Source: Lacinutrix jangbogonensis (lineage in GTDB: Bacteria; Bacteroidota; Bacteroidia; Flavobacteriales; Flavobacteriaceae). From it: a stretch of DNA of 64,000 nt. Positions 13,585-30,966 of this stretch are shown piece after piece. Where the stretch lies: NCBI RefSeq assembly GCF_000797445.1, contig NZ_JSWF01000016.1, forward strand, positions 112,921-176,920, given 5' to 3'. A program made the position numbers and the translations under genes. The notes beneath the pieces are model-generated. The model made no database searches, was not told the origin of the DNA, and was given only the letters and a program-made list of their open reading frames with translations. The first letter of the stretch is position 1. The number at the start of each line of letters is the position of its first letter.

Positions 13585-15153
13585 TTAAGCCTTACTTTGT
13601 GCTTTATAACCTCCTAAATGCTCACAATCTTTTAAAGATTGCATACCCTTAAAAGGTACGGGTGTTTTGTTGTATTGGTATGTTACACTTAACTCTGAAG
13701 ATAAATTGTGGTCATCTACATTTATTTCAATATCTGTCATTTTAAACTGGCAAGGATGCTCGTAACCAGCAGCATGTGTAATTTCGATAAACTCTTTTCT
13801 AAAGGTTTTAAAATACTGTGCAGCACGTTCAGATTTTAATGGTACATCTATACCACGTTGCAACCATTGGCTCTGTGTAGCAACGCCACTTGGGCATTTG
13901 TTTGTGTGGCAAACTTTTGCTTGAATACAACCAATACTCATCATGGCTTCCCGCGCAACATTAATAACATCAACTCCCATTGAAAAAGCCATAGCAGCTT
14001 TGCCAGGGAAACCTAATTTACCACTACCAATAAAAACCACTTGTTTTTCTAATTCCTTTTTCTGAAACAATTTATATAAATCACCAAAAGCATACACCCA
14101 AGGTAAGCTTACATGATCTGCAAAACTTGGAGGCGCAGCACCAGTGCCGCCTTCGCCACCATCTACAGTTATAAAATCTGGACCTTTACCGGTGTTTTTC
14201 ATAATATTTGTTAGCTCTTCCCATTGTTCTAGTTTTCCAATGGCAGCCTTAATACCAACAGGTAATCCTGTTTCTTCGGCTATAGCTTCTATAAAATCTA
14301 CCATTTCTGGAATGGTAGTAAATGCCTTATGGTTTGGAGGAGATAATACTGTTTTACCAACTTCCACGCCACGGATATCCGCAATTTCTTGCGTTATTTT
14401 CGCGCCCGGTAGTACACCACCTTTCCCTGGTTTTGCACCTTGAGAAAGTTTTAGTTCGATAGCACGAATAAACGGATTATCTTCCACCAGTTTCTTCATT
14501 TTTTCCATTGAAAAACCACCATCATCTGCTCGAACACCAAAGTAGCCTGTTCCAAAATGAAATACAACATCTCCACCATTACTATGGTAAGGAGATAAAC
14601 CACCTTCTCCAGTATTGTGGTAAGCACCGGCCATTTTTGTGCCTTTGTTTAACGAGTCGATTGCTCTTGCAGACAAAGAGCCAAAACTCATTGCTGAAAC
14701 ATTAATTACTGAGGCTGGACGAAAGGGTCTTCTACGTTTGTTATGCGCGCCAATAACTTTTGCGCATGGTAAAAAGTATTTGTCTTTAGCATTAATATGG
14801 TCGTCTGCAACTTTATAAGGCAACATGGCATTATTAATAAAAATATGCTGATGCGCATAAATATCGCGATCTGTACCAAAACCTTCGTAATTGTTTTCGC
14901 TTTTAGCGGAAGCATATATCCAACTACGTTCTATGCGATTAAAAGGTAGTTCTTCTCTATTGTTTGCTACAAAATATTGACGAATTTCTGGGCCAATGCT
15001 TTCAAATAAATAACGAATGTGACCAACAATTGGATAATTATGACTTATGGTATGCCTTGATTGTATAATATCACGAAGTGCTAATATTGCTAAGGCAATA
15101 ATAATCCATAGCCACCAAGTAATGCCAGATAAAAAGGTTAGAAAAGTATCCAT
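13585..15153 (-). CDS. FMN-binding glutamate synthase family protein (GltB central/FMN domain), membrane-anchored
   Basis: 522 residues. An N-terminal transmembrane helix (ITWWLWIIIALAILAL) is followed by the FMN (beta/alpha)8 barrel of the glutamate synthase large subunit. Visible signatures are VSAMSFGSLSARAI, GEGGLSPYH, LSQGAKPGKGGVLPG, the active loop TVDGGEGGTGAAPPS, and a 3Fe-4S type cluster C-x5-C-x4-C in CIQAKVCHTNKC. It lacks the glutaminase domain and the C-terminal GXGXG helix domain of GltB, so it is not a complete glutamate synthase; stand-alone homologues have uncertain substrates. It is encoded alone. Its 5' side faces the 691-bp regulatory gap that holds cassette A (15226-15355). 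Confidence 0.88.
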   Translation of the reverse strand: MDTFLTFLSGITWWLWIIIALAILALRDIIQSRHTISHNYPIVGHIRYLFESIGPEIRQYFVANNREELPFNRIERSWIYASAKSENNYEGFGTDRDIYAHQHIFINNAMLPYKVADDHINAKDKYFLPCAKVIGAHNKRRRPFRPASVINVSAMSFGSLSARAIDSLNKGTKMAGAYHNTGEGGLSPYHSNGGDVVFHFGTGYFGVRADDGGFSMEKMKKLVEDNPFIRAIELKLSQGAKPGKGGVLPGAKITQEIADIRGVEVGKTVLSPPNHKAFTTIPEMVDFIEAIAEETGLPVGIKAAIGKLEQWEELTNIMKNTGKGPDFITVDGGEGGTGAAPPSFADHVSLPWVYAFGDLYKLFQKKELEKQVVFIGSGKLGFPGKAAMAFSMGVDVINVAREAMMSIGCIQAKVCHTNKCPSGVATQSQWLQRGIDVPLKSERAAQYFKTFRKEFIEITHAAGYEHPCQFKMTDIEINVDDHNLSSELSVTYQYNKTPVPFKGMQSLKDCEHLGGYKAQSKA

Positions 15154-15225
15154 AGGTTTTGAAAGGTTTTTTCAAAAATAAGGATAATCTATAATTTTGG
15201 TGCTAAACTAATTATTTAAAAAAAG

Positions 15226-15258
15226 AAAAACCATTATAACAAAGTTACAATGGTTTTT
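15226..15258 (-). terminator. Minus-strand terminator hairpin of cassette A
   Basis: A 15-bp stem (15226-15240 with 15244-15258) closes a 3-nt loop. The only irregular pair is A/C if read on plus but G/U if read on minus, and the T-rich tail (TTTTTCTTTTTTT) follows on minus. So it fits a minus-strand RNA, yet no minus-strand gene lies to its right before the giant gene. Confidence 0.65.
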
Positions 15259-15355
15259 TATATATAATTAGATAGATTATTAGCACTTACAATATAAAAC
15301 GTATTTAAGTATTAAACAATACGTATGTATGTCGAAAACTACGTACTAGTACGTA
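15226..15355 (-). promoter_or_regulatory. Cassette A: three TACGTA boxes, possible promoter and terminator
   Basis: TACGTA occurs at 15320, 15340 and 15350, so box spacings are 20 and 10 bp, one or two helical turns. The last two form a perfect 16-bp palindrome, TACGTACTAGTACGTA. On the minus strand, TTG (15317-15319) lies 20 nt from TATATTGT (15289-15296), a weak match to the Bacteroidota TTG/TAnnTTTG promoter. The terminator follows, so a transcript of only about 60 nt is predicted. The whole unit recurs at 27117-27245 without any gap in the alignment between boxes and hairpin. Box identity and spacing are seen directly; promoter and small RNA are inference. Confidence 0.55.
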
Positions 15356-15739
15356 ATGCTTTATAATTATTAATTTGTTTATAATGTGGTGTTTATGCAT
15401 TTTATGTGGTTCTTTAAATGGAATATGTATTTTGGTTGGACGTGAGTTTGAGCATGTTTTAAACTTTTTTATACTAAACATCAAGGCTATAGAAATTTGT
15501 ATTTTTCGGATAACTGCTCTTCTATACCGTAAGTGCAAAAATTTATGAAATTACTAGCACGTAATAATGGGTTTTGTATTAAAATAAACTTGGTTTAAGC
15601 ACATTGATATATTCAGTATTTCTAGTCTTATTTAAGTCTTTATTAAAAGAAATTATCTTAAGAACTGGCTAATCGTGCTCATAAAATAATTCATCAATTA
15701 AAGGGCTTGTTTCTAAGTGGTTATGTTTTTTTAAGACGC

Positions 15740-15754
15740 TACGTACCCTACGTA
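15740..15754 (+). promoter_or_regulatory. Paired TACGTA boxes upstream of the giant gene
   Basis: TACGTA-CCC-TACGTA, with box starts 9 bp apart, about 90 bp before the ATG at 15845. It resembles the palindrome in cassettes A and B (spacer of 3 rather than 4). It is a likely operator for the neighbouring NarL/LuxR-type regulators, by inference from position and shared sequence. Confidence 0.45.
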
Positions 15755-15844: not shown

Positions 15845-18800
15845 ATGAAAAATAAACTACTAATTGTCCTAGCCATTCTAGTAAGTCACATTGCATTTTC
15901 ACAATGTATGGTAGAAGAGGTATCCTTAACAGAAAGAATTAATAAAGCATCAATTATTATTGAAGGCGAAGTGATCTCGAAACAAGGTTTTTGGGATGCC
16001 AAGCGTCAAAATATTTATACTGTTAATACAATACAGCCTTTTAAAAACTTTAAAGGCGTGTTATTTAATAATGCAACCGTAGATATTATTACAATGGGAG
16101 GGACTGTTGGTCTTAACAGATTAGATGTTAGTAATGCTTTAAAACTAAATATTGGTGATATAGGCCTATTTGTTTTGAAGAATTCACCAGTGTCCTTAAC
16201 CCAAAGAGGCAATTTTTTAACCACTGTGGAAGGTGCACAAGGATTTATAAATTATGATACTTCTGATGGTTCTGCCAATGATGGTTTTAAACGCTATCCT
16301 TCAGTAGAACAACAATTATATGCAAACATAGAATCTAAAGTTGGTAAAAACTTAACGGTTTTAAAATCGGTAAATTTATTTCAGAATAATAATGAAAGTC
16401 AGGCTGATGTTATTACTGGATTTGGTCCAACTACTATAAATGCTGGAGTTAGTGATGTGTTTAATATTATTGGAACAGGTTTTGGTAGCTCTCAAGGGAC
16501 AGTGCAATTTAGAGATAGCAATACCGGAGGGGCAACTTGGGTTTCTGCCTTGGATAGTGATATTATATCATGGAACAATACTTTTATCAGAGTAAAAGTG
16601 ATTTCTAGTGCAAGTACTGGGCAATTTCGAGTAAAAAAATCTAATAACGTAAATATAACAAGTAGCAACAGTCAAATTCTAACTGTAAACTGGGCGCATC
16701 TTAACACGGAATATGAATTAGTTCCGGGTACACCAAATAGTTATGAGATAAACTTAAGAGCTAAGGATGCTAATGGAGGTTATCAATTTAAATTTGCGCC
16801 TAACTTTAGTGCTACTAATGCGCAAGCATCTTTTAATAGGGCTTTAGCAACCTGGAACTGTGGTTCTGGAGTTAATTTTGAAAGCTCAGGAAATACATCA
16901 GTAAATGCAGTTGCTTCAGATAATACTAATACTGTAATGTATAATACCTCAGCACAAATTATTGCTGGCGGTGGAAGTGCTAGTAACTTAGCTACAGCGT
17001 TTAGTTGGTATAGTGGATGTTTTGTTGGGAATTCAGTGGAATGGTATGTTAAGGAGATTGATATTGTGGTTAATAGCGATATAAGTTGGTATTATGGCTT
17101 TGGAGACCCAGGAGACCCTAACAAGTTTAGTTTTGAAACTGTAGCGCTTCACGAATTGGGTCATGCACAACAATTGGGTCATGTAGGACAACAAAACGAT
17201 GTTATGTATTATGCTTTAAATACAGGTGAAAGTCTTACAACTTTAACTCCAGAAACCTTAAATGGCGCTAGTTACGTTATGAATAAAAGCACCACTACTT
17301 CTGTATGTGGCGAACCCGTGATGACAACATATGCTGGAAGTATTTGTTGTAATAATCCAGATATCGCCTCTCAACCTTCAGATGTTTTTGAATGTGTAGG
17401 TGAATCTGCTTCCTTTTCAGTAACCTCAAATTATGGAACATCTTTTCAATGGCAAATAAACGATGGAGGTTGGACAAATATTTCAACTAATAATTCGTCC
17501 TATAGTAATTCTAATACTCATGAACTTACTATTCCTGTTATTGTTGGAAGTATGAATAATTCTGAATACAGATGCGTTGTTACTAATTCTTGTGCAACAT
17601 CAGTAATCTCATCGCCTAAGAGTTTAACTTTAGAGCCTTTACCAACTGCAACATTATCTGCTACCGCAGAAACAGCTTGTGAGAATAATGATGGTACAAT
17701 TACATTTACATTTCCAGATAGCCTAGATCGCGGTGGCATTGAATTTAGTATCAACGGTGGTGCTTCGTATCCTTACCATTATGATGACGATATAGGATCT
17801 GCTACCATTACAGGTATAACACCTGCAACGTATAGTGTTTTTACAAGATATGGTGATGATTCTTGTGTTAACGAGGTTGGAGATATAACTGTTAATGAAA
17901 ATAATACCCCACTAGCTTCTGTGTCTAGTTCTACAACTTCAGACTGCATTAATAATAATGGAAGCGTAACTTTAACATGGACGCCGACAATAAACAGAAC
18001 ACAGATTGAATTTAGTATAGATGGAGGAAATACGTATCCTTATTTGGTAAACAACTCAAATGGTAGTAAAACACTCTTTAACTTATCTCCTGGACTCAAA
18101 GACTTATGGGTACGTTGGGGCAACGACGAATGTCCTGTAGATATGGAAGATGTTACCATAATTAATTCAAATTGTAATTTTTCTAATGGATTTAAAACCA
18201 CTTGGAAAACAAATAATCCAGGAGCCTCAGGAAATAATAGTATTACAATACCAATAGCAAGTTCTGGTGTTTATAATTATCATGTAAATTGGGGAGATGG
18301 ACAAACAGACTATAATGTTACCGCAAGTATTACGCATACCTATGCTAGTGCAGGGACTTATACTGTAGAGATAATTGGAGATTTTCCACAAATTTATTTT
18401 AATAATTCGGGAGACAAAGAAAAAATTCTATCTGTAGAAAAATGGGGATCCACAAATTGGACTAGTATGTTTAGGGCTTTTTATGGGTGTAGTAATTTAG
18501 TTGTAAATGCTAATGATAATCCAGACCTAACAGGAGTCACTTCTTTGGCTGGTATGTTTTGGAATGCGTCATCTTTTAATCAAGATATAAGTACTTGGAA
18601 TGTAAGTGGTATTACTAATATGGGATACCTGTTTAATGGCGCTACAGCTTTTAATAAAGATATTAGCGGTTGGAACGTTAGTGGTGTCGAAAATATGTCA
18701 TATATGTTCAGGAGTGCATCTAATTTTAACCAAAATATAAGTAACTGGAATGTAAGTGATGTTTTAAATATGAGCAGTATGTTTAGAAGTGCTAATGCAT

Positions 18801-21800
18801 TCGATCAAGATTTAGGATCTTGGGATATTAGTAGTATAGCAAACATGGCTTCTATGTTTACAAATGTAACCTTGTCTTCATCAAATTATGATAATACCTT
18901 AATAGGTTGGAATACTTTAAGTGGTGCAGAAACAACAATACCAACAGGTATTACTTTTAGCGGAGGTAATAGTAATTTCTGTATTGGAGAAGACGCCAGA
19001 ACAAATTTAGATACAACACACAATTGGACGATTACAGATGGTGGGAAAGACTGTTCTTCAGCATTTATAACCACATGGAAAACAGATAATCCAGGTGTTT
19101 CTAATGCTAATAGTATTACAATTCCAACAAATGGTGTAGATCCTTATAATTATAACGTTAATTGGGGAGATGGCGCAACTAATAGTAATGTAACTAATGC
19201 TATAACACATGCGTATGCTACTTCGGGAACCTATACAGTAAAGATAACTGGTGATTTTCCTCAGATTCATTTTAATAGTTCTGGAGATCCAGAAAAGTTA
19301 CTTTCTGTAGCCCAATGGGGAAGCCAAGTATGGGAAAGTATGGAAAATAGTTTTTCTGGTTGTACAAATATGGTTATAAATGCAAGCGATAATCCAGACC
19401 TTTCAGAGGTGACTTCCTTTTTCCGTGTTTTTCGTGGCGCCGAAGCTATGAATCAAGATATAAGTGGTTGGAATGTAAGTACAGTAACAAGTTTTAGTCA
19501 AGCCTTTTATGGAGCTACTACATTTAACCAAGATATAAGTACTTGGGATGTTAGTGAAGCAATGGCAATGAACCAGATGTTTAGGGAGGCAGTAGATTTT
19601 AATCAAAACATAGGAGGATGGAACGTAAGTAAAGTAGAGTCTATGAACCAGATGCTCCGTGGAGCTGTAGATTTTGATCAAAATTTAGGAGATTGGGATA
19701 TTAGTAGCATGCTAAGTATGACTTCAATGTTTTTAGACATGGCCATGTCTTTAACAAATTATGATAATACGTTAATAGGTTGGAATACCTTAAGCGGTAT
19801 AGAAATAGCTATTCCAACAGGTATTACTTTTAGTGGTGGAAATAGTAATTTTTGTCTTGGAGAAGCCGCAAGAACTAATTTAGATACTACACACAGTTGG
19901 ACTATTACAGATGGTGGTAAAGATTGTTCTTCAGCATTTATAACCACATGGAAAACAGATAATGAAGGCGTTACTAATGATAATAGCATTAGAATCCTTA
20001 CAAACGGTGTAGATTCTTATAATTTTAATATTAATTGGGGAGATGGCACAAACAATAGTAATGTTACAGGAACTATAACACATACTTATGCTACTGCTGG
20101 TAACTATACAGTAACTATTAATGGAGATTTTCCTCTTTTTTGGTTTGGAAACACTGGAGATAAGGAAAAGTTGCTTTCTGTAGACCAATGGGGAGACCAA
20201 GTATGGAAAAGTATGCAAGGTAGTTTTTATGGTTGTACAAATATGGTTATTAATGCAACAGATAGTCCAGACCTTTCAGAAGTTACTTCATTTATAAATA
20301 TTTTTCGTGGTGCTACTGTTATGAATCAAGACATAAGCACTTGGGACGTAGGTAATGTAGAATCTATGACAGCTGCTTTTTTTGGCGCTACAGCCTTTAA
20401 TAAAGATTTAAGCACTTGGGATGTAAGTAATGTTTTAAATATGAATAACATGTTTGCGAATGCAACGGTATTCGATCATAATCTTGGAGATTGGGACATT
20501 AGTAGTGTGTCAAGTATGGCAAATATGTTTAATAATGCAGCCTTGTCTTTATCAAATTATGATAATACGTTAATAGGTTGGAATACCTTAAGCGGTTCGG
20601 AAACAGCAATACCTACAGGTGTTACTTTTAGCGGTGGAAACAGTAAGTATTGCAGTGGAGAAGCCGCAAGAACTAATTTAGATACTACTCACAACTGGAC
20701 TATTACAGATGATGGCAAAGTCATAGATTGTTTACCGTTTATAAGTACTTGGAAAACAAATAATACAGGCCAAACAAATAATAATAGTATAAGAATACCA
20801 AAACTTACATCAAGTTCATATGTATATAATTATATTGTTGATTGGGGAGATGGACAAACAGACACCAACGTTACTGGGAGTAGAGTGCATACGTATGATT
20901 TACCAGGAACATACATCGTAAAAATATATGGCGATTATCCACACATGCGTTTTGCAAATACGGGCGATAAACTTAAAATTCTATCTATAGAACAATGGGG
21001 AAACCAACAATGGGCAAGTATGGAACGAAGTTTCGAAGGGTGTAATAATTTAGTAATTAGTGCAACAGATAATCCAGATCTTTCGCAGGCCACTTCTTTT
21101 TATCGCATATTTAAAGAAGCTACTTCTATGAATCAAGATATAAGTGGATGGAATGTAAGCACAATTACAAATATGGTTTCAACCTTTTATGGAGCAACAG
21201 CATTTAATCAAGATATAAGTACTTGGAATGTTAGTAATGTTGATGATATGGGTGGTATGTTTTTTGATGCCATTGCCTTTAATCAAGATATTAGTGGATG
21301 GATTGTTAGTAAAGTTACACGTATGGACTCTATGTTTAAAAATGCCTTTGCGTTTAATCAAGATATTGATAATTGGGACGTTAGTGATGTTTTAGGCATG
21401 GTTAGTATGTTTGAAAATGCGGGTTCGTTTGATCAAGATCTTGGGTCTTGGGATATTAGTAGTATAGAACCTAACGGTATGGCTACTATGTTTGCTGGAG
21501 TATTATTATCACCAACCAATTATGATAATACTTTAATTGGCTGGAACACTCTAAGTAGTTCAGAAATTAAAGTCCCTACTTTTACCAGTTTTGATGGTGG
21601 TAATAGTAGGTATTGTAACAGTGCTATCGAACATGCGAGTCTAAATACTAATTACTTTTGGTCTATTACAGATGGTGGTTTAGACTGTTCTAGACCTTTT
21701 ATTAGTACTTGGAAAACAAATAACTTAGGACCCACAAATAATACGCAAATAACAATACCGGTCTCGAGTTCTGAAACGTATAACTATACGGTGTATTGGG

Positions 21801-23299
21801 GAGATGGAACTAGTAATGCTAATGTAACAGCAGGTATGACACATACATATGCTAACGCAGGAACCTACACCGTAAAAATATATGGCGATTTTCCACACAT
21901 ACGTTTTGCATTTGCAGGTGATAGACGTAAAATTCTATCTATAGAGCAATGGGGAAGCCAAGCTTGGTTAAGTATGGCAGACAGTTTCGATGGGTGTCTT
22001 AATTTGGTAGTTAATGCAGCCGATAATCCAGACCTTTCGCAAGCTACTTCTTTATCAAGTATTTTTCGAGATGCAACTGCAATGAATCAAGATATTAGTG
22101 GTTGGGATGTGAGTACCATTACTAATATGGAAAAAGCCTTTTGGGGAGCTACAGCTTTTAATCAAGATTTAAGTACTTGGGATGTTAGTGCTGTTACAGA
22201 TATGTCTGAGATGTTTAGAAGTGCTAATTCGTTTGATCAAGACCTTGGAGCTTGGGATATAAGTAGTATTGCACCTAGTGGTATGGCTGATATGTTTACC
22301 CAAACAACACTATCTACTGCTAACTACGACAATACATTAATAGGTTGGAGTACAGTAACTGGACAAGAATTAAGGGTGCCATCTTTTACTGACTTTAACG
22401 GTGGTAATAGTAAGTTTTGTGCTGGCAAAGACGCACGCGATATTCTAAATAGCCCGCTATATTCGTGGACAATTACAGATGCAGGCAGTAATTGTGCAGA
22501 AGTTGCTATAAAAGTAGTTTTACAAGGTGCTGCTTTAAATCCTAATACTGGTGAAGAATCTTTAATGCGTGACGATTTACGTGTAAACAATCTACTACCA
22601 ACAACTAGTCCTTATACAGATGCTTTAGTGGCAGACTTAACAGTGTTCGATGCTGGAGGAACTTCAGGTTTAGAGCCAATAAATAATGACATTGTAGACT
22701 GGGTTTTTGTTGAATTTCGTGATGCTACTAATAGTTCAATTACTACAGCCAGTCAATCTGCATTACTGCAGCGTGATGGCGATGTTGTTGCTATTGATGG
22801 TGTTTCAGATTTAGACCTAAATTTCGCGACTGGTAATTATTATGTGGTCGTGAAGCATCGTAACCATTTAGGTGTTATGACCCAAAATGCGGTTACACTA
22901 GATGCGTCTAAGATTTTATTAGATTTTACCGATATTATAGGTGTCAATAACCAATTTACCTACGGTTCAAATGCGCAAGCTATTATTGTAGGTTCACCAA
23001 ATAAGTTAGCACTTTGGTCTGGAAACACTAATGGAGATCAATACGTTCAATATACAGGTGCAACGCCAGATGTACCTAATATTTTATCAACGGTGTTAAA
23101 TAATCCAGGAAATTTTTTAAATTTCCCGACCTATTCATTTTCAGAATATAATACAAATGATGTTGATATGAATGGAAGTATTCAATATAGTGGAGCATCT
23201 CCAGACTCGCCTTTTATATTACAAAACACCCTTTCGCATCCAGGGAATTTTTTAAACTTTAGTACGTATAGAATACAAGAACAACTGCCAGAAAACTAA
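15845..23299 (+). CDS. Giant secreted protein: IPT + metzincin-like protease + five PKD/BspA modules + dockerin-like C-terminus
   Basis: 2484 residues from ATG 15845, chosen because a signal peptide (MKNKLLIVLAILVSHIAFSQ) starts there; the frame is open upstream to 15707. In order: an N-terminal domain; IPT/TIG-like fold (about 195-290); a matrixin-type protease with HELGHAQQLGH near residue 436 and a Met-turn at about 454 (DVMYYALNTGE); an Ig-like region; two SprB-like repeats of about 90 residues; five tandem modules, each a PKD domain (W-G-D-G, H-T-Y-A-x-A-G-T-Y-T-V) plus 3-5 BspA repeats (F-N-Q-D-I-S-x-W-N/D-V-S-x-V-x-x-M); and a C-terminal domain ending in two N/D-x-N-G-x-x-Q-Y motifs. 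It is probably exported to the cell surface for adhesion or proteolysis. No classical T9SS type A tail is seen. Likely regulated by the adjacent two-component pairs. Confidence 0.88.
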   Translation: MKNKLLIVLAILVSHIAFSQCMVEEVSLTERINKASIIIEGEVISKQGFWDAKRQNIYTVNTIQPFKNFKGVLFNNATVDIITMGGTVGLNRLDVSNALKLNIGDIGLFVLKNSPVSLTQRGNFLTTVEGAQGFINYDTSDGSANDGFKRYPSVEQQLYANIESKVGKNLTVLKSVNLFQNNNESQADVITGFGPTTINAGVSDVFNIIGTGFGSSQGTVQFRDSNTGGATWVSALDSDIISWNNTFIRVKVISSASTGQFRVKKSNNVNITSSNSQILTVNWAHLNTEYELVPGTPNSYEINLRAKDANGGYQFKFAPNFSATNAQASFNRALATWNCGSGVNFESSGNTSVNAVASDNTNTVMYNTSAQIIAGGGSASNLATAFSWYSGCFVGNSVEWYVKEIDIVVNSDISWYYGFGDPGDPNKFSFETVALHELGHAQQLGHVGQQNDVMYYALNTGESLTTLTPETLNGASYVMNKSTTTSVCGEPVMTTYAGSICCNNPDIASQPSDVFECVGESASFSVTSNYGTSFQWQINDGGWTNISTNNSSYSNSNTHELTIPVIVGSMNNSEYRCVVTNSCATSVISSPKSLTLEPLPTATLSATAETACENNDGTITFTFPDSLDRGGIEFSINGGASYPYHYDDDIGSATITGITPATYSVFTRYGDDSCVNEVGDITVNENNTPLASVSSSTTSDCINNNGSVTLTWTPTINRTQIEFSIDGGNTYPYLVNNSNGSKTLFNLSPGLKDLWVRWGNDECPVDMEDVTIINSNCNFSNGFKTTWKTNNPGASGNNSITIPIASSGVYNYHVNWGDGQTDYNVTASITHTYASAGTYTVEIIGDFPQIYFNNSGDKEKILSVEKWGSTNWTSMFRAFYGCSNLVVNANDNPDLTGVTSLAGMFWNASSFNQDISTWNVSGITNMGYLFNGATAFNKDISGWNVSGVENMSYMFRSASNFNQNISNWNVSDVLNMSSMFRSANAFDQDLGSWDISSIANMASMFTNVTLSSSNYDNTLIGWNTLSGAETTIPTGITFSGGNSNFCIGEDARTNLDTTHNWTITDGGKDCSSAFITTWKTDNPGVSNANSITIPTNGVDPYNYNVNWGDGATNSNVTNAITHAYATSGTYTVKITGDFPQIHFNSSGDPEKLLSVAQWGSQVWESMENSFSGCTNMVINASDNPDLSEVTSFFRVFRGAEAMNQDISGWNVSTVTSFSQAFYGATTFNQDISTWDVSEAMAMNQMFREAVDFNQNIGGWNVSKVESMNQMLRGAVDFDQNLGDWDISSMLSMTSMFLDMAMSLTNYDNTLIGWNTLSGIEIAIPTGITFSGGNSNFCLGEAARTNLDTTHSWTITDGGKDCSSAFITTWKTDNEGVTNDNSIRILTNGVDSYNFNINWGDGTNNSNVTGTITHTYATAGNYTVTINGDFPLFWFGNTGDKEKLLSVDQWGDQVWKSMQGSFYGCTNMVINATDSPDLSEVTSFINIFRGATVMNQDISTWDVGNVESMTAAFFGATAFNKDLSTWDVSNVLNMNNMFANATVFDHNLGDWDISSVSSMANMFNNAALSLSNYDNTLIGWNTLSGSETAIPTGVTFSGGNSKYCSGEAARTNLDTTHNWTITDDGKVIDCLPFISTWKTNNTGQTNNNSIRIPKLTSSSYVYNYIVDWGDGQTDTNVTGSRVHTYDLPGTYIVKIYGDYPHMRFANTGDKLKILSIEQWGNQQWASMERSFEGCNNLVISATDNPDLSQATSFYRIFKEATSMNQDISGWNVSTITNMVSTFYGATAFNQDISTWNVSNVDDMGGMFFDAIAFNQDISGWIVSKVTRMDSMFKNAFAFNQDIDNWDVSDVLGMVSMFENAGSFDQDLGSWDISSIEPNGMATMFAGVLLSPTNYDNTLIGWNTLSSSEIKVPTFTSFDGGNSRYCNSAIEHASLNTNYFWSITDGGLDCSRPFISTWKTNNLGPTNNTQITIPVSSSETYNYTVYWGDGTSNANVTAGMTHTYANAGTYTVKIYGDFPHIRFAFAGDRRKILSIEQWGSQAWLSMADSFDGCLNLVVNAADNPDLSQATSLSSIFRDATAMNQDISGWDVSTITNMEKAFWGATAFNQDLSTWDVSAVTDMSEMFRSANSFDQDLGAWDISSIAPSGMADMFTQTTLSTANYDNTLIGWSTVTGQELRVPSFTDFNGGNSKFCAGKDARDILNSPLYSWTITDAGSNCAEVAIKVVLQGAALNPNTGEESLMRDDLRVNNLLPTTSPYTDALVADLTVFDAGGTSGLEPINNDIVDWVFVEFRDATNSSITTASQSALLQRDGDVVAIDGVSDLDLNFATGNYYVVVKHRNHLGVMTQNAVTLDASKILLDFTDIIGVNNQFTYGSNAQAIIVGSPNKLALWSGNTNGDQYVQYTGATPDVPNILSTVLNNPGNFLNFPTYSFSEYNTNDVDMNGSIQYSGASPDSPFILQNTLSHPGNFLNFSTYRIQEQLPEN
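18191..22497 (+). repeat. Five tandem PKD + BspA-LRR modules inside the giant gene
   Basis: Module starts (F-I/K-x-T-W-K) are at 18191, 19064, 19937, 20738 and 21698. Lengths are 873, 873, 801, 960 and about 799 bp. They contain 4, 4, 3, 5 and 3 BspA units of about 25 residues, so most of the length difference comes from unit number. Each ends in N-Y-D-N-T-L-I-G-W and W-S/T-I-T-D-x-G. Modules 1-3 are closer to each other than to 4-5, which suggests serial duplication. Confidence 0.85.
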
Positions 23300-23409: not shown

Positions 23410-24057
23410 CTATTCTTCTATAAAAAGAAGTTCTTTATACTCTGTAGTCCAATTAAAAAGGGCATCTATACTCGTTTTTAATTCTAATTTTGTAATAATA
23501 TTAGTTCTATGTTTTTGTACCGTTCTTACGGAAATAAATAAGGATTCGGCGATCTCTTTTGTAGTATACTTTTTAGCAATTAATCTTATTATTGTATGCT
23601 CTGAAGGAGATAGTTTTTGAAATTTTTCTAACTCAGGTGAGATTTGGTTTTCATAAACAGCGTCAAATGTTTTACTAAAATAGTTCTCGCCATTACCCAA
23701 GGCTTCGATACAATTTTCTATTTGGTTAAAAGGTTCATCTTTTAGTAAATAACCAGAAATATTTAATGTTTTAGCTTTAATAATATAGCGTTTTTCTTTA
23801 TGGGAGGTAAGTAATATAAATTTGGTTTTTAAGTTTATGTTTCTGCATTCTTTTATCACTTGAAAACCGTTAAGTATTGGCATTTGGATATCTAAAATGG
23901 CAATATCTGGGTTATGCTTTAAAATAAGTTCTGAAGCGTCTTTACCATTTGTAGCAGTAGCAATAACATTATAGTTATTGGATACTAATTCTTCCGTTAA
24001 ACCTTTTAATAATAAAGGGTGATCGTCTGCTATTATAATTTTAATTTCTTTAGACAT
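23410..24057 (-). CDS. LuxR/NarL-family response regulator 1
   Basis: 215 residues. The receiver domain has the acidic pair DD at 11-12, phospho-acceptor Asp56 in DIAILDIQMP, the switch Thr/Ser in LLTSHK and the conserved Lys in LLKDEP. The C-terminal GerE helix-turn-helix spans about 145-205 (LSPSEHTIIRLIAKKYTTKEIAESLFISVRTVQKH). It starts 1 bp after the upstream sensor kinase gene stop, so the two form an operon and almost certainly a cognate pair. It is about as long as and clearly paralogous to regulator 2 (27268-27912). DNA target unknown; the paired TACGTA boxes nearby are candidates. Confidence 0.92.
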   Translation of the reverse strand: MSKEIKIIIADDHPLLLKGLTEELVSNNYNVIATATNGKDASELILKHNPDIAILDIQMPILNGFQVIKECRNINLKTKFILLTSHKEKRYIIKAKTLNISGYLLKDEPFNQIENCIEALGNGENYFSKTFDAVYENQISPELEKFQKLSPSEHTIIRLIAKKYTTKEIAESLFISVRTVQKHRTNIITKLELKTSIDALFNWTTEYKELLFIEE

Positions 24058-24058
24058 T

Positions 24059-27058
24059 TTATAGTGGTATTTGAGCTGTAATCTTTGTTCCTTTTTTTAA
24101 TTTACTGTCGATGGTTAATTCGCCTTTTAATATACGTATACGTTCATAAATTGTTTTAAGTCCTAAACTGTTTTTTATTTTCGCATTGGTAAGATCAAAT
24201 CCTTTTCCGTTATCTTCAATTGTTATTGTAATGAAGTTGTGCTCTTTTATAATGTTTACATATAGTGCTTTAGCGTCTGCGTGTTTTAAAATATTATTAA
24301 TGCATTCTTGTATAAAACGATAACAATTGAGGGCTTGTTCTTCATTAAAATAGGTGTCTATTTTATTAATCTCTGAAGAAACAAATAGGTTGGTTTGTTT
24401 GTCAATATCTAAAATCAATTGATCAATGCTTTCCGTTAAGCCAAGTTGTTTTAGTAAAGGCGGATATAAACCACGAGATAGCGCACGAACCTCTTCAAGG
24501 GTATTATGAGTAAGTGTTGTTATTTCTTCTTGATCTATGCTTTGGGCTTTTCTTTTAATCAAAGTAAGTTGCTGGCTAATACTATCGTGCAATTCTATTG
24601 CTATTCTACTGCGTTCATTTTCTTGAGATTGTATTAATCCTTGTGAAAAGTTTTCTTGAAGGGTTTTTTTAATTTGTGCTTGTTTTAAAAGCCATAATAA
24701 AGTGGAAATAATGACAATAGAAATTAACGAAATAAACCACCAATTTTTGTAAAAGAACTCTTTACTTTCGATGGTTAGATTTAATGTGTTTGCTATTTTC
24801 TTTCTTGAAAAATCTAATGCTTCAATTTCTAAATTATGATCTCCAGCTGCTAAATTTGGAATCTGTATTACATTTTGATGTTTTAATTCTATCCATTCTT
24901 TCTTGTTTAAACGGTATCTATAGTAGTAGTTTCCTGTAACTTTATTTGCCTTTTTTAAAGCGAAAATAAGCTCTAAAGCTCTGTTTTCTGAAGGTAGTAT
25001 AATGGGTTTGTTAGATTCTAAATCTAAACGGTTAAAATTGGTTGTGTATTTTTTTAAGGCTTTATCATATTTATTCACTTTAAGCAATACCAATTCTGCC
25101 GAATCTTTTTTTATATTTAAATCTTCAGGTCTAAAATAATTAAGGCCCTTAATGGTACCCACTAAAAAGGCTTTATCCTTTGTTTTTAAGGCGCTATATC
25201 TATTGGCTTCATTATTACTTAAACCTTCATTTTCTGAAAACCGTGTTGTTATTTTGTCTTTTGGATTAAAAGAAACAACTCCATTAAAGGTGTTAATCCA
25301 CCAGATATCATTATTAAAAAGAATGCTTGCAATTCCTGCATTTAAATCATCTTGGTATAAAGTTGTAAAACTTTCGTTGTCAGCATTAAAAGCTACTATT
25401 TTCCCGCTTCTTGTTCCTAGTAAATAACCGTAATCTTTATGGTAGTCGCACATTAAAATATAGGAGTCTTCCAGTTTAGATTTACTATTATAAAAATGAT
25501 GCGCTTTAGTCTTTAAATTATAAGTTAATAATCCTTTGTCGGTTACTGCAACAACTAAGTTGCTGTTTTTTAGTATTGCGATGTCAATAATATCTAAGGA
25601 GTCGGTTTTAAGGAGTGGTTTATGAGTTCTAGTTTTAGTATTAAACTGCATAAGCTTATAATTAGTTGTGCCATAAATAATAGTACTATCATTGGGACGC
25701 TCTAAACAATTTACAGGTTTTTGATTATAAGTTTCTGTCTCAAATGTATTGGTATCTACTCTCAAAATAGAAGCTTCGCTATTACTCCATATAATGTTGT
25801 TTTCTTTAAAAATGTTTCTAGTTGAGATAGGCGTAAAGGCATTGTCTTTGTTTTTTAATGCTAAAGGCTTAATTGTATTTTTAGAAGTGTTTAATTTAAA
25901 CCATCCGGATTCCTCGGTTGCTATTATATAGTTAGTAGAATCTAATGCACTTATAGCTCTAATGCTATGGGAGTTGAGGTGGTTTTTTATTTGTTTTTTT
26001 GGAAATCTATAATAATGTAATTCATTATTGTACGTCACCCATAAATCTTCATTTATATTTTTAGATGTAGCAATAAAGCCTTTAACGGTACTGTATTCTT
26101 TTTCCTCATAAATAGTCTTCAAACCAGCGTCGTCCAGAGTATCAAAACGGAGTTTGTTATTAATGGAAGATATAATAAGATGGTTTTTTAAATCATCATT
26201 ATAAGTTTCAATAAAATTTTTACTTAAGGTTTTGTTTGTAGTGCTGCAAATTAAAATTTCTTTAGTTTTTTCATTTATATAATGTAACTGAGAGCTATTA
26301 TTTATAAAACAATAGAAAGTCTTATTGGCCTTAAATAAATTTGTTATCCAGTATTTAGATTGATTTGTAGTTTTAAATGAATTTGAACCCATTGTTTTTA
26401 ATAAATTTCCTTTCCAATCGAACATCATAATAGGGAAACTGTCATCTCCAATTATACAATAGTCTTTAAAGTAAATAAATTGAGTAGAAGAGTCTATTAA
26501 AAATTCATTCTCGTTATTAGTAAAACTAAATACAGGCTTTAAACTAAGATCCTTGAGAATTATATTTACTGTTATTTCTTGTTCTTTTTGTGATAAAATA
26601 TAGTCTTTAAAATGGTATTTAAAAACCTTTGAGAGTTGTGTGGCACCCGAACTGTAACTACTTGTTTTTATTCTCGTAAACTTTGCCGTTACAGGATCGA
26701 ATAAAAATAGAATATGTTCAAACGATGTTACTGCTTTTATGTAGAACTTACCATCATTTCGTTTATAGATTTGTGATATCTTAGTTATTGGCTGTTCTAA
26801 AAGAGGTAAGGGTATGTTATGAAATGTATTGCCATCAAAACGTTGTAATGTTAGTTTCTGTTTATTTAAAACAATAGTCCTCACATTATAATTAACGCCA
26901 CCTAGCCATAAAAAACCATCATTATCCAAACACAGGGTAGCTATTAAATCTAATGCTAAGCCATCGTTTTTTGTGTAGGTTTTCTTGTTTAATCTACTGG
27001 ATTGGGAAAAGGAAAAAATAGAGAATAATAATATAAAGTATAAAAGACTTTTACTCAT
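24059..27058 (-). CDS. Y_Y_Y-type hybrid-like sensor histidine kinase 1
   Basis: 999 residues. The open frame reaches 27130, but I place the start at 27058, because there it gives a signal peptide (MSKSLLYFILLFSIFSFSQ) that aligns with the paralogue, and it removes a hydrophobic but unmatched leader. Order: about 650 residues of two-component-regulator propeller repeats (periplasmic sensor), Y_Y_Y domain, one membrane helix (WWFISLISIVIISTLLWLL), HisKA_3 dimerisation helix with phospho-accepting His (IAIELHDSISQQL, about residue 824), then HATPase_c (N-box ECINNILKH, G-box DNGKGFDL). Its own regulator follows directly. It probably senses an extracellular sugar or peptide, by analogy with polysaccharide-responsive relatives. 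Possibly controlled from the leader block at 27096-27115. Confidence 0.92.
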   Translation of the reverse strand: MSKSLLYFILLFSIFSFSQSSRLNKKTYTKNDGLALDLIATLCLDNDGFLWLGGVNYNVRTIVLNKQKLTLQRFDGNTFHNIPLPLLEQPITKISQIYKRNDGKFYIKAVTSFEHILFLFDPVTAKFTRIKTSSYSSGATQLSKVFKYHFKDYILSQKEQEITVNIILKDLSLKPVFSFTNNENEFLIDSSTQFIYFKDYCIIGDDSFPIMMFDWKGNLLKTMGSNSFKTTNQSKYWITNLFKANKTFYCFINNSSQLHYINEKTKEILICSTTNKTLSKNFIETYNDDLKNHLIISSINNKLRFDTLDDAGLKTIYEEKEYSTVKGFIATSKNINEDLWVTYNNELHYYRFPKKQIKNHLNSHSIRAISALDSTNYIIATEESGWFKLNTSKNTIKPLALKNKDNAFTPISTRNIFKENNIIWSNSEASILRVDTNTFETETYNQKPVNCLERPNDSTIIYGTTNYKLMQFNTKTRTHKPLLKTDSLDIIDIAILKNSNLVVAVTDKGLLTYNLKTKAHHFYNSKSKLEDSYILMCDYHKDYGYLLGTRSGKIVAFNADNESFTTLYQDDLNAGIASILFNNDIWWINTFNGVVSFNPKDKITTRFSENEGLSNNEANRYSALKTKDKAFLVGTIKGLNYFRPEDLNIKKDSAELVLLKVNKYDKALKKYTTNFNRLDLESNKPIILPSENRALELIFALKKANKVTGNYYYRYRLNKKEWIELKHQNVIQIPNLAAGDHNLEIEALDFSRKKIANTLNLTIESKEFFYKNWWFISLISIVIISTLLWLLKQAQIKKTLQENFSQGLIQSQENERSRIAIELHDSISQQLTLIKRKAQSIDQEEITTLTHNTLEEVRALSRGLYPPLLKQLGLTESIDQLILDIDKQTNLFVSSEINKIDTYFNEEQALNCYRFIQECINNILKHADAKALYVNIIKEHNFITITIEDNGKGFDLTNAKIKNSLGLKTIYERIRILKGELTIDSKLKKGTKITAQIPL

Positions 27059-27095: not shown

Positions 27096-27115
27096 GTAAA
27101 GATATCTAAAAAAAA
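27096..27115 (-). promoter_or_regulatory. Leader block shared by both sensor kinase genes (copy 1)
   Basis: A 20-bp stretch (minus strand: T8-AGATATCTTTAC) is identical to 30947-30966, and each lies about 35-50 bp upstream of its kinase start. TATCTTTA resembles the Bacteroidota -7 element (TAnnTTTG), but no good -33 TTG was found. It is either a promoter element or a conserved 5' untranslated segment kept since the duplication. Confidence 0.5.
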
Positions 27116-27116
27116 G

Positions 27117-27149
27117 AAAACCGCCTTCAATAATATTGAAGACGGTTTT
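27117..27149 (-). terminator. Minus-strand terminator hairpin of cassette B
   Basis: A 15-bp stem (27117-27131 with 27135-27149) with a 3-nt loop. The single irregular pair is C/A on plus but G/U on minus, and TTTTCTTTTTTTT follows on minus. It can terminate the kinase 2/regulator 2 operon, whose last gene ends at 27268, or a short RNA starting in cassette B. Confidence 0.75.
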
Positions 27150-27245
27150 ATATATATAATAAAGTATTAATAGCATTTACAATATATAACGCTTGTTAGA
27201 ATTAAACAATACGTATGTATGTCGAAAACTACGTACCAGTACGTA
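27117..27245 (-). promoter_or_regulatory. Cassette B: three TACGTA boxes, possible promoter and terminator
   Basis: TACGTA at 27210, 27230 and 27240 keeps the 20- and 10-bp spacing of cassette A. The last two boxes read TACGTACCAGTACGTA, one base off a perfect palindrome. The 45-bp box region differs from cassette A by one base (27201-27245 against 15311-15355). The weak promoter TTG (27207-27209) and TATATTGT (27179-27186) have the same 20-nt spacing. The stem sequences differ from cassette A but the stem length, loop length and wobble type agree. It lies between regulator 2 and the kinase 1 gene. Confidence 0.55.
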
Positions 27246-27267: not shown

Positions 27268-27912
27268 TTATAATGAGAGTATTATATCTTTATGGTTATT
27301 TGCCCAAACAGAAAGAGATTCTAAGTTGGACTCGAGATCAAGTTTATTTAGAATATTTGTGCGGTGTTTTTGTACCGTTCTTAAAGAAATATAAAGGGAT
27401 TCAGAAATGTCTTTAGATGAATTTCCTTGTGCAATAAGTCTAACAATTGTTCTTTCGGAGGGCGATAAACGTTTCATCTTTTCTAACTCTGGGGAAATTT
27501 CGGTTTCAAAAACGGTATTAAAAGTAGTACTAAAATAAGTGTTGCCATTTTTAATAGCATTAATACAGTTTTGAATTTCAATAAATGGCTCGTCCTTCAA
27601 TAGGTAACCTGAAATATTTAAAGTTTTCGCTTTATAAACAAAGCGACTTCCTTTATGGGTCGTCAATATAATAAACTTAGTTTTTAGGCCTTTACCTTCA
27701 CATTTTTTAATGACTTCAAAGCCATCAAGCAAAGGCATTTCTATGTCTAAAAGAGCAATGTCTGGATTTAGTTTGGTAATAAGCTCCAAGGCAATTGCTC
27801 CATTTTCGGCAGTAGAAATAACATTATATCCATTTGTTATTAGTTCTTCTGTTAGGCCTTTTAAAAGCATTGGGTGATCGTCTGCTACTATGATATTTAA
27901 ATTTTTAGCCAT
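27268..27912 (-). CDS. LuxR/NarL-family response regulator 2
   Basis: 214 residues. Receiver domain with DD at 11-12, phospho-acceptor Asp56 in DIALLDIEMP, Thr in ILTTHK and Lys in LLKDEP; GerE-type helix-turn-helix at about 144-205 (LSPSERTIVRLIAQGNSSKDISESLYISLRTVQKH). Its ATG overlaps the 3' end of the kinase 2 gene by 8 bp, a translational coupling typical of cognate pairs. It is close in sequence to regulator 1 along its length, and the DNA-recognition helices (SLRTVQKHR and SVRTVQKHR) are nearly the same. So both may bind the same or similar sites, such as the TACGTA pairs 20-60 bp past its stop codon. Confidence 0.92.
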   Translation of the reverse strand: MAKNLNIIVADDHPMLLKGLTEELITNGYNVISTAENGAIALELITKLNPDIALLDIEMPLLDGFEVIKKCEGKGLKTKFIILTTHKGSRFVYKAKTLNISGYLLKDEPFIEIQNCINAIKNGNTYFSTTFNTVFETEISPELEKMKRLSPSERTIVRLIAQGNSSKDISESLYISLRTVQKHRTNILNKLDLESNLESLSVWANNHKDIILSL

Positions 27913-30900
27913 TTTTTAATGGGATTTTTGCAGTAGTTAGTGTGCCTTGATTAGGTTTACTTTCGATTGTTAACTCTCCTTTTAATATTCGAATACGCTC
28001 ATAAATGGTTTTTAAACCAAGACTGTTTTGTTTTTTAGCGCGGGTAACATCAAAACCTTTGCCATTATCTTGAATACTAATTTTAATGTAATCATTTGTT
28101 TTTAACACGCTTATTGATAATGCCTTTGCATCGCCATGTTTTAAGCAGTTATTAACACATTCTTGAATAAAGCGGTAACAATTTAGAGTTTGGTCTTCAT
28201 TAAAATAAGTGTCAATTTTATCAACCTCTCCAGATATAAATAAATTAGTTTGTTCATCTACTTCTAGAATTAGTTGTTCTATACTTTTACTCAATCCTAA
28301 TTGTTTTAATAATGGAGGATATAAGCCATAAGAAATGGCTCTAACTTCTTCTAGCGTATTGTGAGTAAGAACTTTAATTTCCTCTTGATTCGTGTTTTGT
28401 GCTTTCCTTTTAATTAAGGTGAGTTGTTGACTAATACTATCATGTAATTCTCTAGCGATGCGTTTGCGTTCGTCTTCTTGAGATTTAATTAGGCCTTGAG
28501 AAAATTCTTCTTGGCGTCGTTTTCTGTTTTTTGCTTGTTGTAATAACCATAATAGAAAGCTTATTATGGATAAAGATATAATGGTGAAAAACCACCATTT
28601 TTTATAGAAAAATTCTGTGCTATAAATATTTATTATTAATGCGTTGGCAATTTTTTTTCCGGAAAAGTTTAGAGCTTCAATCTCTAAAGTATAATTTCCT
28701 GCAGCTAAATTGGGAAATTGTATTTCGTTTTGATCTTTTAAAGCTATCCAACCTTTATTATTTAAACGGTATCGGTAATTATAACCTTTATAAACAGCAT
28801 CAGTATTTTTAAGTCCAAAACCTACTTCTAGTCTTCTGTTTTCAGAAGGCAATGTAATGTCCGTGTTTTTACTAAAGACACTGCGGTCATAGGTGTTTTT
28901 AAAAGTTTCTTCAGCATTGTTAAATTGATTGATTTTTAAAAGGGTTAATGAAGCAGAATCATTTTCTGTTTTTAATTCTGAAGGTTTAAAGTAATTAAGA
29001 CCTTTTAGTGTGCCAACAAAGAAGCCGTCTTTGGTTTTTAAAGCACTATAACGATTAGCTTCGTAGTGACTAAAACCATCTTTTTCAGAAAAACGTATTT
29101 TGCTTTTAGTTTTGGGATTAAAAGCGATGTAACCATTAAAAGTGTTAATCCACCAAAGTTCTTTATCAAATAATATAGTAGCTATACCCGCTTTTAAATC
29201 GTCTTTAAAAATTGTTGTAAAGCTTTCTTTTTTAGCATTAAAGGCTACAATGTGCCCAGTTCTCGTACCCAATAAATAACCATAGTCTTTATGGTAGTCT
29301 AACATTAAAATATATGGGTCTTCTAAGTCTGTTTTATTATTATTATTATTATTATAAAGTGTATGTGCTTTAGTTTCTAAATTGTATGTTAATAAGCCTT
29401 TGTCTGTTCCCGCTACAATGAGATTACTATGTTTTTTATACTGAATATCGAAGAGGTAAAGCGAGTCGGTATTAACTAATGAAGAATGTACTTTAGTCTG
29501 TGTATTGAATTGCATTAAACGATACCTTTTAGTACCGTAGACAATAATACTATCGTTAATTTTTTCCATGCATATTACAGGAAAATGTTTAAAGCTTTTA
29601 AGTGTTTTGTTTTTTATATTAACTTTAATAATTCCACCATCACCATGAGACCATAAAATGTTGTTTTCAAAAATAAAGTTACGCGATCCAATAGATTTAA
29701 ATGGTTTGTTATTTAGTGTTAATGGAAATGTTTCAATTTTATCTTTACTGGGATTGATTTTAAACCAACCATTCATTTCGCTTGCAACTAGATAGTTTAT
29801 AGAATCTATTGGTTTAATGGTTCTAAATTCTAAATCGGGTAAATAGTTTTTAATTGATTTATTAGGGAATTTATAATAATGAAGTTTTCCATTTGTACTC
29901 AACCAAACATCTTTAGTTAAGTTTTTTGATAATACAGTAATACCATTTATGTCTTCAAAATTTATAAGATAATTTTGTTCAAATTGATTACTGCTATAAC
30001 TATTAAAGGTTAGTGCATCATTATTAGAAGCAAAAATAATAACATTACCCAAACTATCATTATAAGTGTTAAGATGCTTGTTCGGTAAACTAATGTTTTT
30101 AACTGGAATTAGGTTTTTTAATGCTTCATCTATTTTATAAAGATTTGGGTTTTTATTTAAAAATAAATAGGTAACACCTTCTTTTACAAAAGCTTCATCA
30201 ATAACTGTTTTTGAGTCTTTTGTCAAGTTGTAGGTGTTAATCAAGTCTAATTCTTTTAACAATTCACCATTCCAATCAAAAACTTTAACGTTGAAGTTGT
30301 CATCAGAAATCATGATGAAGTCTTTAAAAAAAAGCAACCTGCTTGAGCTATCTATTAAAACTTTGTTTTCAATGACAGTGAAGCTAAAGAGTTGAGTTGA
30401 AGATAAATCTATGGCTAGTTTTTTTATAGAAACTTTTGTTCCTTTTTGTATTAATAGATAATCTTCGTTTTTATAGGAAAATATTTTAGACAAGCCATCT
30501 AAATTAAAATCTAAACCTCCAAAATTTAAGGTTTCATATTTTGAAGTAAAAGGGTCAAAAAGAAGTAAACCATAGCCTTTAGTCAATTTTGTAGAGACAT
30601 AAAACTTACCATCTTTTCTTTTGTATAGCTGTTGTACTTGTTCTATTGCATTTTCAAAATCAGGTAAATTAATAGAATGAAAGCTGTTTCCATTAAAGCG
30701 TTGTAGTGCTAATTTTTTTTCGCTAATAATAATAGTTCTATCGTCATAATTACTTCCACCTAACCATAAAAAGCCATCGTTATCATAACATAAAGTATAA
30801 ATTCTATCCATTTCTATACCGTCTTGTTTGGTATATGTTTTCTGGTACAGTTTGTTAGATTGCGCAAAACTTGCTAAAGAAAAAATGAAAAGTAAGTATA

Positions 30901-30946: not shown

Positions 30947-30966
30947 GTAAAGATATCTAAAAAAAA
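30947..30966 (-). promoter_or_regulatory. Leader block shared by both sensor kinase genes (copy 2)
   Basis: Identical over 20 bp to 27096-27115 and in the same position, upstream of the kinase 2 start at 30916. There are no TACGTA boxes upstream of this gene, unlike kinase 1, so the two pairs may be regulated differently. Confidence 0.5.

Follow-up and report, generated by a model that had tools for sequence, protein, structure and literature searches.

Two TACGTA-boxed cassettes beside kinase-regulator pairs in Lacinutrix jangbogonensis resemble short members of a candidate small-RNA family of the Flavobacteriaceae

The stretch of the Lacinutrix jangbogonensis genome analysed here as a whole (64 kb, hereafter the window) carries two pairs of histidine kinase and response regulator genes, identified by Pfam, and two short intergenic cassettes designated copies A and B. 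On the minus strand the order is a kinase gene with Y_Y_Y and regulator-propeller matches (HK2, 27905..30916), a LuxR-type response regulator gene with Response_reg and GerE domains (RR2, 27268..27912), copy B, a second kinase gene (HK1, 24059..27058) and a second LuxR-type response regulator gene (RR1, 23410..24057). Beyond RR1 lie a plus-strand surface-protein gene, then copy A, and then a minus-strand glutamate-synthase-like gene (13585..15153; PF01645), assigned by Pfam and by synteny, which also adjoins the cassette downstream in related genomes. The surface-protein gene (15845..23299) encodes DUF285, PKD and matrixin-like domains according to Pfam and its translation, and the latter suggests a probable start at 15845 with a signal-peptide-like N-terminus. 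Ahead of this gene, on the plus strand, is TACGTACCCTACGTA (15740..15754, with a 9-bp step), possibly a further target site; in a related genome, G195, a secreted-protein gene is preceded by a triple of TACGTA boxes. Copy B is directly behind RR2, and copy A is behind only the decayed end of a response regulator gene.

Read on the minus strand, the cassettes extend from 15355 to 15218 (copy A) and from 27245 to 27108 (copy B). Each opens with three TACGTA boxes at offsets 0, 10 and 30, which places them on a 10-bp grid (15350-15355, 15340-15345 and 15320-15325 in A, spanning 15320..15355; 27240-27245, 27230-27235 and 27210-27215 in B, spanning 27210..27245). The boxes are followed by TTG, 20 nt and TATATTG, identically laid out in the two copies (TTG 15319-15317 and TATATTG 15296-15290 in A, within 15290..15319; TTG 27209-27207 and TATATTG 27186-27180 in B, within 27180..27209), an arrangement that we take to be promoter-like with reference to the Bacteroidota promoter consensus. 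An earlier note on this DNA, made from its letters alone, had proposed a weak promoter; the promoter is boxed by TACGTA rather than merely weak. Downstream, a small RNA of about 70 nt is predicted for each copy from a putative start site, by folding and a terminator-like end in A (15218..15288) and by folding in B (27108..27178). Its parts are a 5' motif (GTGCTAATAAT, 15286-15276 in A; ATGCTATTAAT, 27176-27166 in B), an AT-rich linker, a hairpin (15258-15226 in A; 27149-27117 in B) and a T-run (15225-15218 and 27116-27108, respectively). The predicted folds of both RNAs show a single-stranded 5' end and then a terminator, composed of the hairpin and the T-run.

Counted from the first box, the two copies are identical at 44 of the first 45 positions and at 71 of 80 positions, without gaps, to the end of the 5' motif. 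The earlier note had claimed a gapless alignment from the boxes to the hairpin, and this is correct to within one base, the hairpin starting 97 nt from the box start in A and 96 nt in B; in a MAFFT alignment a 2-nt gap is placed in the linker. Reading and folding agree with its description of the hairpins, each of which has on the minus strand 15 bp and a 3-nt loop, one pair that is G-U only on this strand (the plus strand has one mismatch in each copy) and a T tail consisting of C and seven or eight T (CTTTTTTT in A, CTTTTTTTT in B). The stems differ in sequence between the copies, as direct reading confirmed.

The TACGTA N4 TACGTA box pair is exact in both copies. Across the 4.0-Mb genome, exact TACGTANNNNTACGTA occurs at three places, namely A, B and one site within a coding gene that resembles tryptophanyl-tRNA synthetase (named by eye from its translation), and with one mismatch it occurs at 6 places, compared with 15 for the reversed control. 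The 27-base string running from box to box is found only at A and B in this genome at up to three mismatches, and the strict 27-mer occurs in one of 299 genomes of the family, that of L. jangbogonensis. A DNA search of the genome likewise returned A and B only, besides a 26-nt box self-match in B and weak matches, and an Rfam scan of the 64-kb window gave no family at the gathering score.

The stretch upstream of copy A (15356..15470, minus strand) resembles, in a box-anchored alignment, the decayed remnant of the 3' end of a response regulator gene. Its 115 nt score 20 against the end of the regulator gene of genome G304 and 13 against the end of RR2, values that 0 of 2000 dinucleotide shuffles reached in either case (maxima 6 and 5); against the regulator end of G303 the score is -3, reached by 53 of 2000 shuffles, which is no clear match. 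The best remnant score was reached by 0 of 804 other pieces of the window, and an unanchored alignment of the copy A flank with the regulator genes was not significant. The boxes and promoter of copy A are kept in sequence next to this decayed stretch. Copy A probably outlived its own regulator gene and would be served in trans by RR1 or RR2. The remnant corrects the assertion that copy A has no gene needing a terminator, since the trace of an upstream gene is there, and it bears out, for the place of copy A, the suggestion of a leftover from a lost kinase/regulator pair. Since B lies behind a regulator gene and A behind the remnant of one, the idea of a tiny RNA and the idea of a leftover both hold.

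A short form resembling A and B occurs in seven other genomes, among which the box type tracks the regulator type: five have a response regulator together with TACGTA boxes, and two are without. Three of the five (G304, G303 and G171) share the order response regulator, cassette, glutamate-synthase-like gene, and in the other two (G306 and G195) the cassette has a kinase and a response regulator on its upstream side and large secreted-protein genes downstream. The two genomes where TACGTA boxes are missing (G294 and G091) have the RNA part ahead of the glutamate-synthase-like gene, and their upstream gene encodes a one-protein 7TMR-DISM-LuxR regulator (Pfam, run on the G294 protein). At these two loci (L006 and L008) the regulator swap is, by sequence comparison, accompanied by a putative operator swap. 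ACCCAAAAACCACCC is common to both loci where the TACGTA boxes would be.

The box triple, at no more than one mismatch, was found in 27 of 397 sampled Flavobacteriaceae genomes and its reversed control in five; the one-mismatch matches are mostly unrelated sites, several of them before a gene named by eye as nitrite-reductase-like. Eight of the 11 exact matches lie behind a response regulator gene, and downstream of the exact triples is either a secreted-protein gene or an A/B-like cassette. TACGTATWAATACTTAG...TACGTA is present immediately upstream of the nitrite-reductase-like gene in six genomes (L104-L106, L109, L112 and L125), where it is probably the operator of a different regulon.

A more widespread, canonical form was recovered with a pattern of a box pair plus CTATTAAT, which accepts only gaps of at least 36 nt and hence covers box-to-motif distances from 51 nt upwards. 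It matched 71 of the 397 sampled Flavobacteriaceae genomes, among them at least three (G108, G172 and G288) with chance-like matches only. These matches span 47 of 237 genera, and the rows contain none to the reversed control. The pattern matched 0 of 284 genomes of the order outside Flavobacteriaceae, the four genomes with a match in an order-wide sample of 346 (62 of them family members, counted by hand) all being within the family; a box-plus-motif match was present in 0 of 30 genomes of genus g127. Two or more matches occur in 41 of the 71 genomes, and arrays hold 1 to 8 copies, the eight of G356 being spaced 138-140 bp apart. Among 30 inspected loci, an orphan LuxR-type response regulator gene lies upstream on the same strand in 28, an aspartyl-protease-like gene precedes the regulator in 26 (Pfam run on one), and a sucB-like gene lies downstream and faces the array in 22; the names sucB and TatD, like that of the tryptophanyl-tRNA synthetase, were given by eye from translations.

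A scan of the fetched loci that allowed distances of 45-89 nt yielded 187 rows, counted without L001-L005 and exact duplicates and including about ten chance-like rows. In 159 of them GCTATTAAT stands exactly 51 nt from the first box, and a terminator-like hairpin is present in 165. The upstream consensus reads TACGTAgttcTACGTATT..., with TTTAcAnT immediately 5' of GCTATTAAT, and the predicted canonical RNA has a median length of 73 nt (135 of 155 copies). An Rfam search of nine related loci gave four weak matches below the gathering score, which were taken as chance, and none to FopS/GibS; searches of an open-access library of the literature listed no description of this TACGTA small-RNA family. 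By eye, the last array unit is followed at 32 loci (L107, L153-L155, L157, L158, L164, L167, L169-L173, L176, L181-L184, L186, L193, L194, L202-L204, L208, L212, L213, L215, L219, L224, L227 and L229) by an ORF that encodes about 35-43 residues, including a single hydrophobic stretch, and that often has an end similar to INILVNFF; L251 of L. jangbogonensis also has such an ORF. This ORF may encode a membrane mini-protein, with the last small-RNA unit as its possible leader.

Covariation was counted in 51 of 89 eligible copies, eligibility requiring a terminator at least as stable as -10 kcal/mol and a linker no longer than 27 nt that contains GGGA or AGGG. The two helices have 94.0% of cells paired, a percentage inflated by the selection for a stable terminator, with two-sided changes at 16 of 22 pairs; 130 cells changed two-sidedly, whereas shuffled alignments averaged 31 and slid ones did not exceed 38. 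G-U pairs exceed A-C by 108:4 in the terminator stem and by 94:9 in the first stem, and the sense hairpin is the more stable in 140 of 165 cases and the antisense hairpin in 17. The G-U excess and the stability of the sense hairpin fix the RNA strand, and the G-U excess points to the strand that had been proposed for A and B. Compensatory change had also been read from A and B, for which two copies alone are insufficient, but the family does covary, as counted on canonical members with A and B excluded. The family search found further copies in many genomes, their stems strongly covarying, and to this extent the reading of the cassette as a tiny RNA gains support from comparative sequence. RNAalifold returned no structure for the first ten-sequence alignment, in which the arms were misaligned. 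A covariance model built from five short forms (R1) picked up so many terminator-like sites in whole genomes that the counts do not rely on it.

By sequence criteria, A and B belong to a short and divergent form of this canonical family. They carry the 5' motif GCTATTAAT, exact in B and with one mismatch in A (GCTAATAAT), at 71 nt from the box start, as against the canonical 51 nt; an extra box pair lies two turns upstream, and the third box stands where canonical members have their second box, at 41 nt. The first hairpin with its AGGGA loop is absent from both. The canonical covariance model (R2) reported four other short forms (33 to 37 bits) but, with E values up to 10 allowed, neither A and B nor three other short forms. 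Kinase leaders in six loci start with TAnnTTTACAnnGCT[AT]TTA, which resembles the small RNA 5' end (window position 30955, minus strand; L033:6962; L264:2826; L265:5087, minus; L266:2285, minus; L263:2127); the leader of HK2 is among them and that of HK1 is not. Because these leaders start similarly, part of the 5' motif may be a feature of the transcription-initiation region. Across the 64-kb window, TAnnTTTACAnnGCT[AT]TTA is not more frequent than in shuffles.

The canonical response regulator is present in full in 10 of 13 genomes of the genus, at 62-64% identity; it is partial with a stop in G301 and absent from G305. L. jangbogonensis has no full canonical regulator, its matches being RR1 (47%), RR2 (43%) and one further protein (38%). 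At the canonical place in this genome (L251, G000:C31:153-233) the end of the protease gene is followed by a copy and then by a mini-protein ORF, and the regulator gene is missing between. This copy, the only canonical one in the genome, lacks TACGTA boxes and has the palindrome CAGGTAGAACTACCTG at the position of TACGTAGAACTACGTA in its relatives; its motif is GCAATTAAT. The three copies in the L. jangbogonensis genome carry three different motifs, which argues against a single shared target.

The sequences upstream of the canonical arrays point to a candidate target. The 134,506 nt that precede the arrays contain 23 matches to ATTAATAGC, which is complementary to the 5' motif, and none to the reversed word; 18 of the 23 fall in response regulator start regions and two at protease starts. 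Regulator start regions could be parsed for 70 of 76 locus groups. TTAATAGC is present in 21 of these 70 and absent from 49, whereas 300 mononucleotide shuffles gave a mean of 0.35 and never more than 2; CCCT, which is complementary to the AGGG loop, is present in 42 of 70, against 8.55 in shuffles (maximum 15). Within a narrower interval, TTAATAGC occurs in 19 of 70 regulator, 0 of 33 TatD-like and 2 of 67 protease start regions, and CCCT occurs in the 40 nt that precede the start codon in 37 of 70, 1 of 33 and 3 of 67, respectively; the sucB-like gene, with one start region parsed, gave no control. The median duplex energy for regulator start regions is -15.2 compared with -12.7 for dinucleotide shuffles, a shift seen for the regulator only, and start regions beating all 20 shuffles number 15 of 67 for the regulator (3.2 expected), 1 of 33 for TatD (1.6) and 4 of 65 for the protease (3.1). 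The computed pairing of canonical RNAs with the start region of the regulator mRNA is, in both motif and duplex enrichment, specific to the regulator, with the limit that the motif was tested on the same data that suggested it and that the genomes are related. At loci like L157 the motif and loop complements are ordered as one antiparallel duplex, and at L164, L175, L189 and L210 their order is reversed. Because regulator starts carry both complements far above controls, the canonical RNAs likely repress their own response regulator. At L177 and L185 the aspartyl-protease-like gene that precedes the regulator has the 5'-motif complement immediately ahead of its start codon and is possibly a second target there. 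For the short form in the window, a pattern search for the corresponding complementarity to regulator start regions returned the cassette itself only, and among 44 window start regions no clear pairing was found, 19 (A) and 5 (B) of 100 shuffled RNAs performing equally well.

We consider it likely that A and B are minus-strand genes for small RNAs of about 70 nt, activated by response regulators through TACGTA boxes, and that they represent a short, diverged form of a Flavobacteriaceae family. The 10-bp box grid, the fixed promoter spacing, the conserved 5' motif, the covarying hairpins, the terminator-like ends and the adjacency to response regulator genes are all present in the sequence. The reading of the cassettes as RNA genes is well supported by these features, and activation of their promoters by response regulators through the boxes is a reasonable inference; feedback on the regulator can be predicted with good reason in the case of canonical arrays but has no support in that of A and B. 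The neighbouring LuxR-type response regulators would bind the TACGTA boxes and switch on the promoters of A and B. Among canonical members, often in tandem behind an orphan LuxR-type regulator gene, the regulator would drive a row of small RNAs whose 5' motif GCUAUUAAU and AGGGA loop would pair with the regulator's own start region and produce negative feedback. The canonical locus of L. jangbogonensis has lost its regulator and kept one degenerate copy, and the locus in the window is shared by two kinase-regulator pairs, the surface-protein gene and copies A and B. We hold a broader reading with about as much doubt as belief, according to which GCUAUUAAU and the AGGGA loop would form a two-part seed by which the tandem RNAs silence the regulator that drives them, and the last unit would be the leader of a membrane mini-protein of about 36 residues; in L. 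jangbogonensis the orphan regulator would be gone, its boxes having been taken over by the kinase-regulator pairs, the short forms and the surface-protein gene.

A and B might alternatively be decaying relics, derived from working small-RNA genes of the family and now functionless. The regulator remnant at copy A would fit such a history, as would the missing loop hairpin, the divergence of motifs among the three copies of the genome and the lack of a clear target among window start regions, but both copies retain the boxes, the promoter, the full 15-bp stem and the T tail although the adjoining remnant has decayed, and seven other genomes have the short form as well; we regard this explanation as unlikely. 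We give somewhat less credence to the possibility that the cassettes combine plain terminators with promoters, the hairpins ending transcription of RR2 and of the lost regulator gene and the boxed promoters serving HK1 and the glutamate-synthase-like gene, with no separate RNA of any importance. The hairpins do lie behind regulator genes and some 60 to 75 bp before the next genes, the same boxed promoter runs straight into a secreted-protein gene in several other genomes, and a mini-protein ORF follows the last unit of many arrays. However, a hairpin downstream of the boxed promoter would halt its transcripts before they reached the gene, array units of promoter, motif and terminator, up to 8 in a row and repeated every 140 bp or so, are too tightly spaced for larger genes, and the 5' motif is kept across genera.

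Two further explanations seem far less probable. The cassettes could be leader-peptide genes in which ATG CTA TTA AT... starts a tiny ORF and the hairpin is an attenuator, and the 5' motif indeed starts with ATG in B, G304, G294 and G091 and with GTG in A; G303, G171, G306 and G195 have no start codon at the same position, and on these sequences the mini-ORF reading of the motif is rejected and the explanation considered very improbable. They could also be a mobile or DNA-level repeat element containing no RNA gene, which would account for two near-identical copies in the window and tandem arrays elsewhere. Against this, the arrays hold one syntenic place, behind a response regulator gene (28 of 30) and mostly before the sucB-like gene (22 of 30), the stem changes show the strand asymmetry of an RNA, and the DNA search of the genome described above recovered A and B only, apart from the box self-match and weak matches; we attach hardly any weight to this possibility.

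For the small-RNA reading that we prefer, the nearest known wiring is that of Vibrio, where several Qrr small RNAs are activated by the response regulator LuxO and feed back on luxO; LuxO is a sigma-54 activator and the Qrr RNAs use Hfq. The likeness lies in multiple similar small RNAs that would be switched on by a response regulator and would feed back on its mRNA, and the difference in the regulator, which is of the LuxR/NarL type here, with both its control of the RNAs and the feedback being predictions. The nearest architecture is that of FopS/GibS of Bacteroides thetaiotaomicron, described in a report that also names Qrr (PMC11697453) as a set of paralogous small RNAs in which a single-stranded 5' seed comes before the terminator hairpin, reported to bind near the start codons of their targets; the 14 FopS copies are described there as dispersed and as having canonical promoters. 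This layout of seed and terminator is that of the short form, whereas the present copies stand behind a regulator gene and TACGTA boxes, are often in tandem and have no credible Rfam match. The same report mentions as paralogous families the CiaR-dependent small RNAs of Streptococcus and LhrC of Listeria (PMC11697453); by description, the former resemble the present family as paralogous short RNAs under one two-component regulator, and both differ in host and regulator. From the same bacterial family comes Rfp18 of Flavobacterium psychrophilum, a conserved small RNA that is reported to affect protease mRNAs and is described with at least three stem-loops (PMC9723704). The portions of the open-access Flavobacteriaceae literature consulted describe few small RNAs and tie none to a response regulator.

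At the array locus a regulator, its likely operator, an RNA and a predicted target lie side by side, across tens of genera, and because copy number (1 to 8), regulator type and boxes vary naturally, this wiring is genetically testable. Within the window, a conserved intergenic element that resembles an orphan terminator gains an explanation. If the interpretation is true, it would add regulator-small RNA feedback to a phylum whose RNA-based control is barely mapped.
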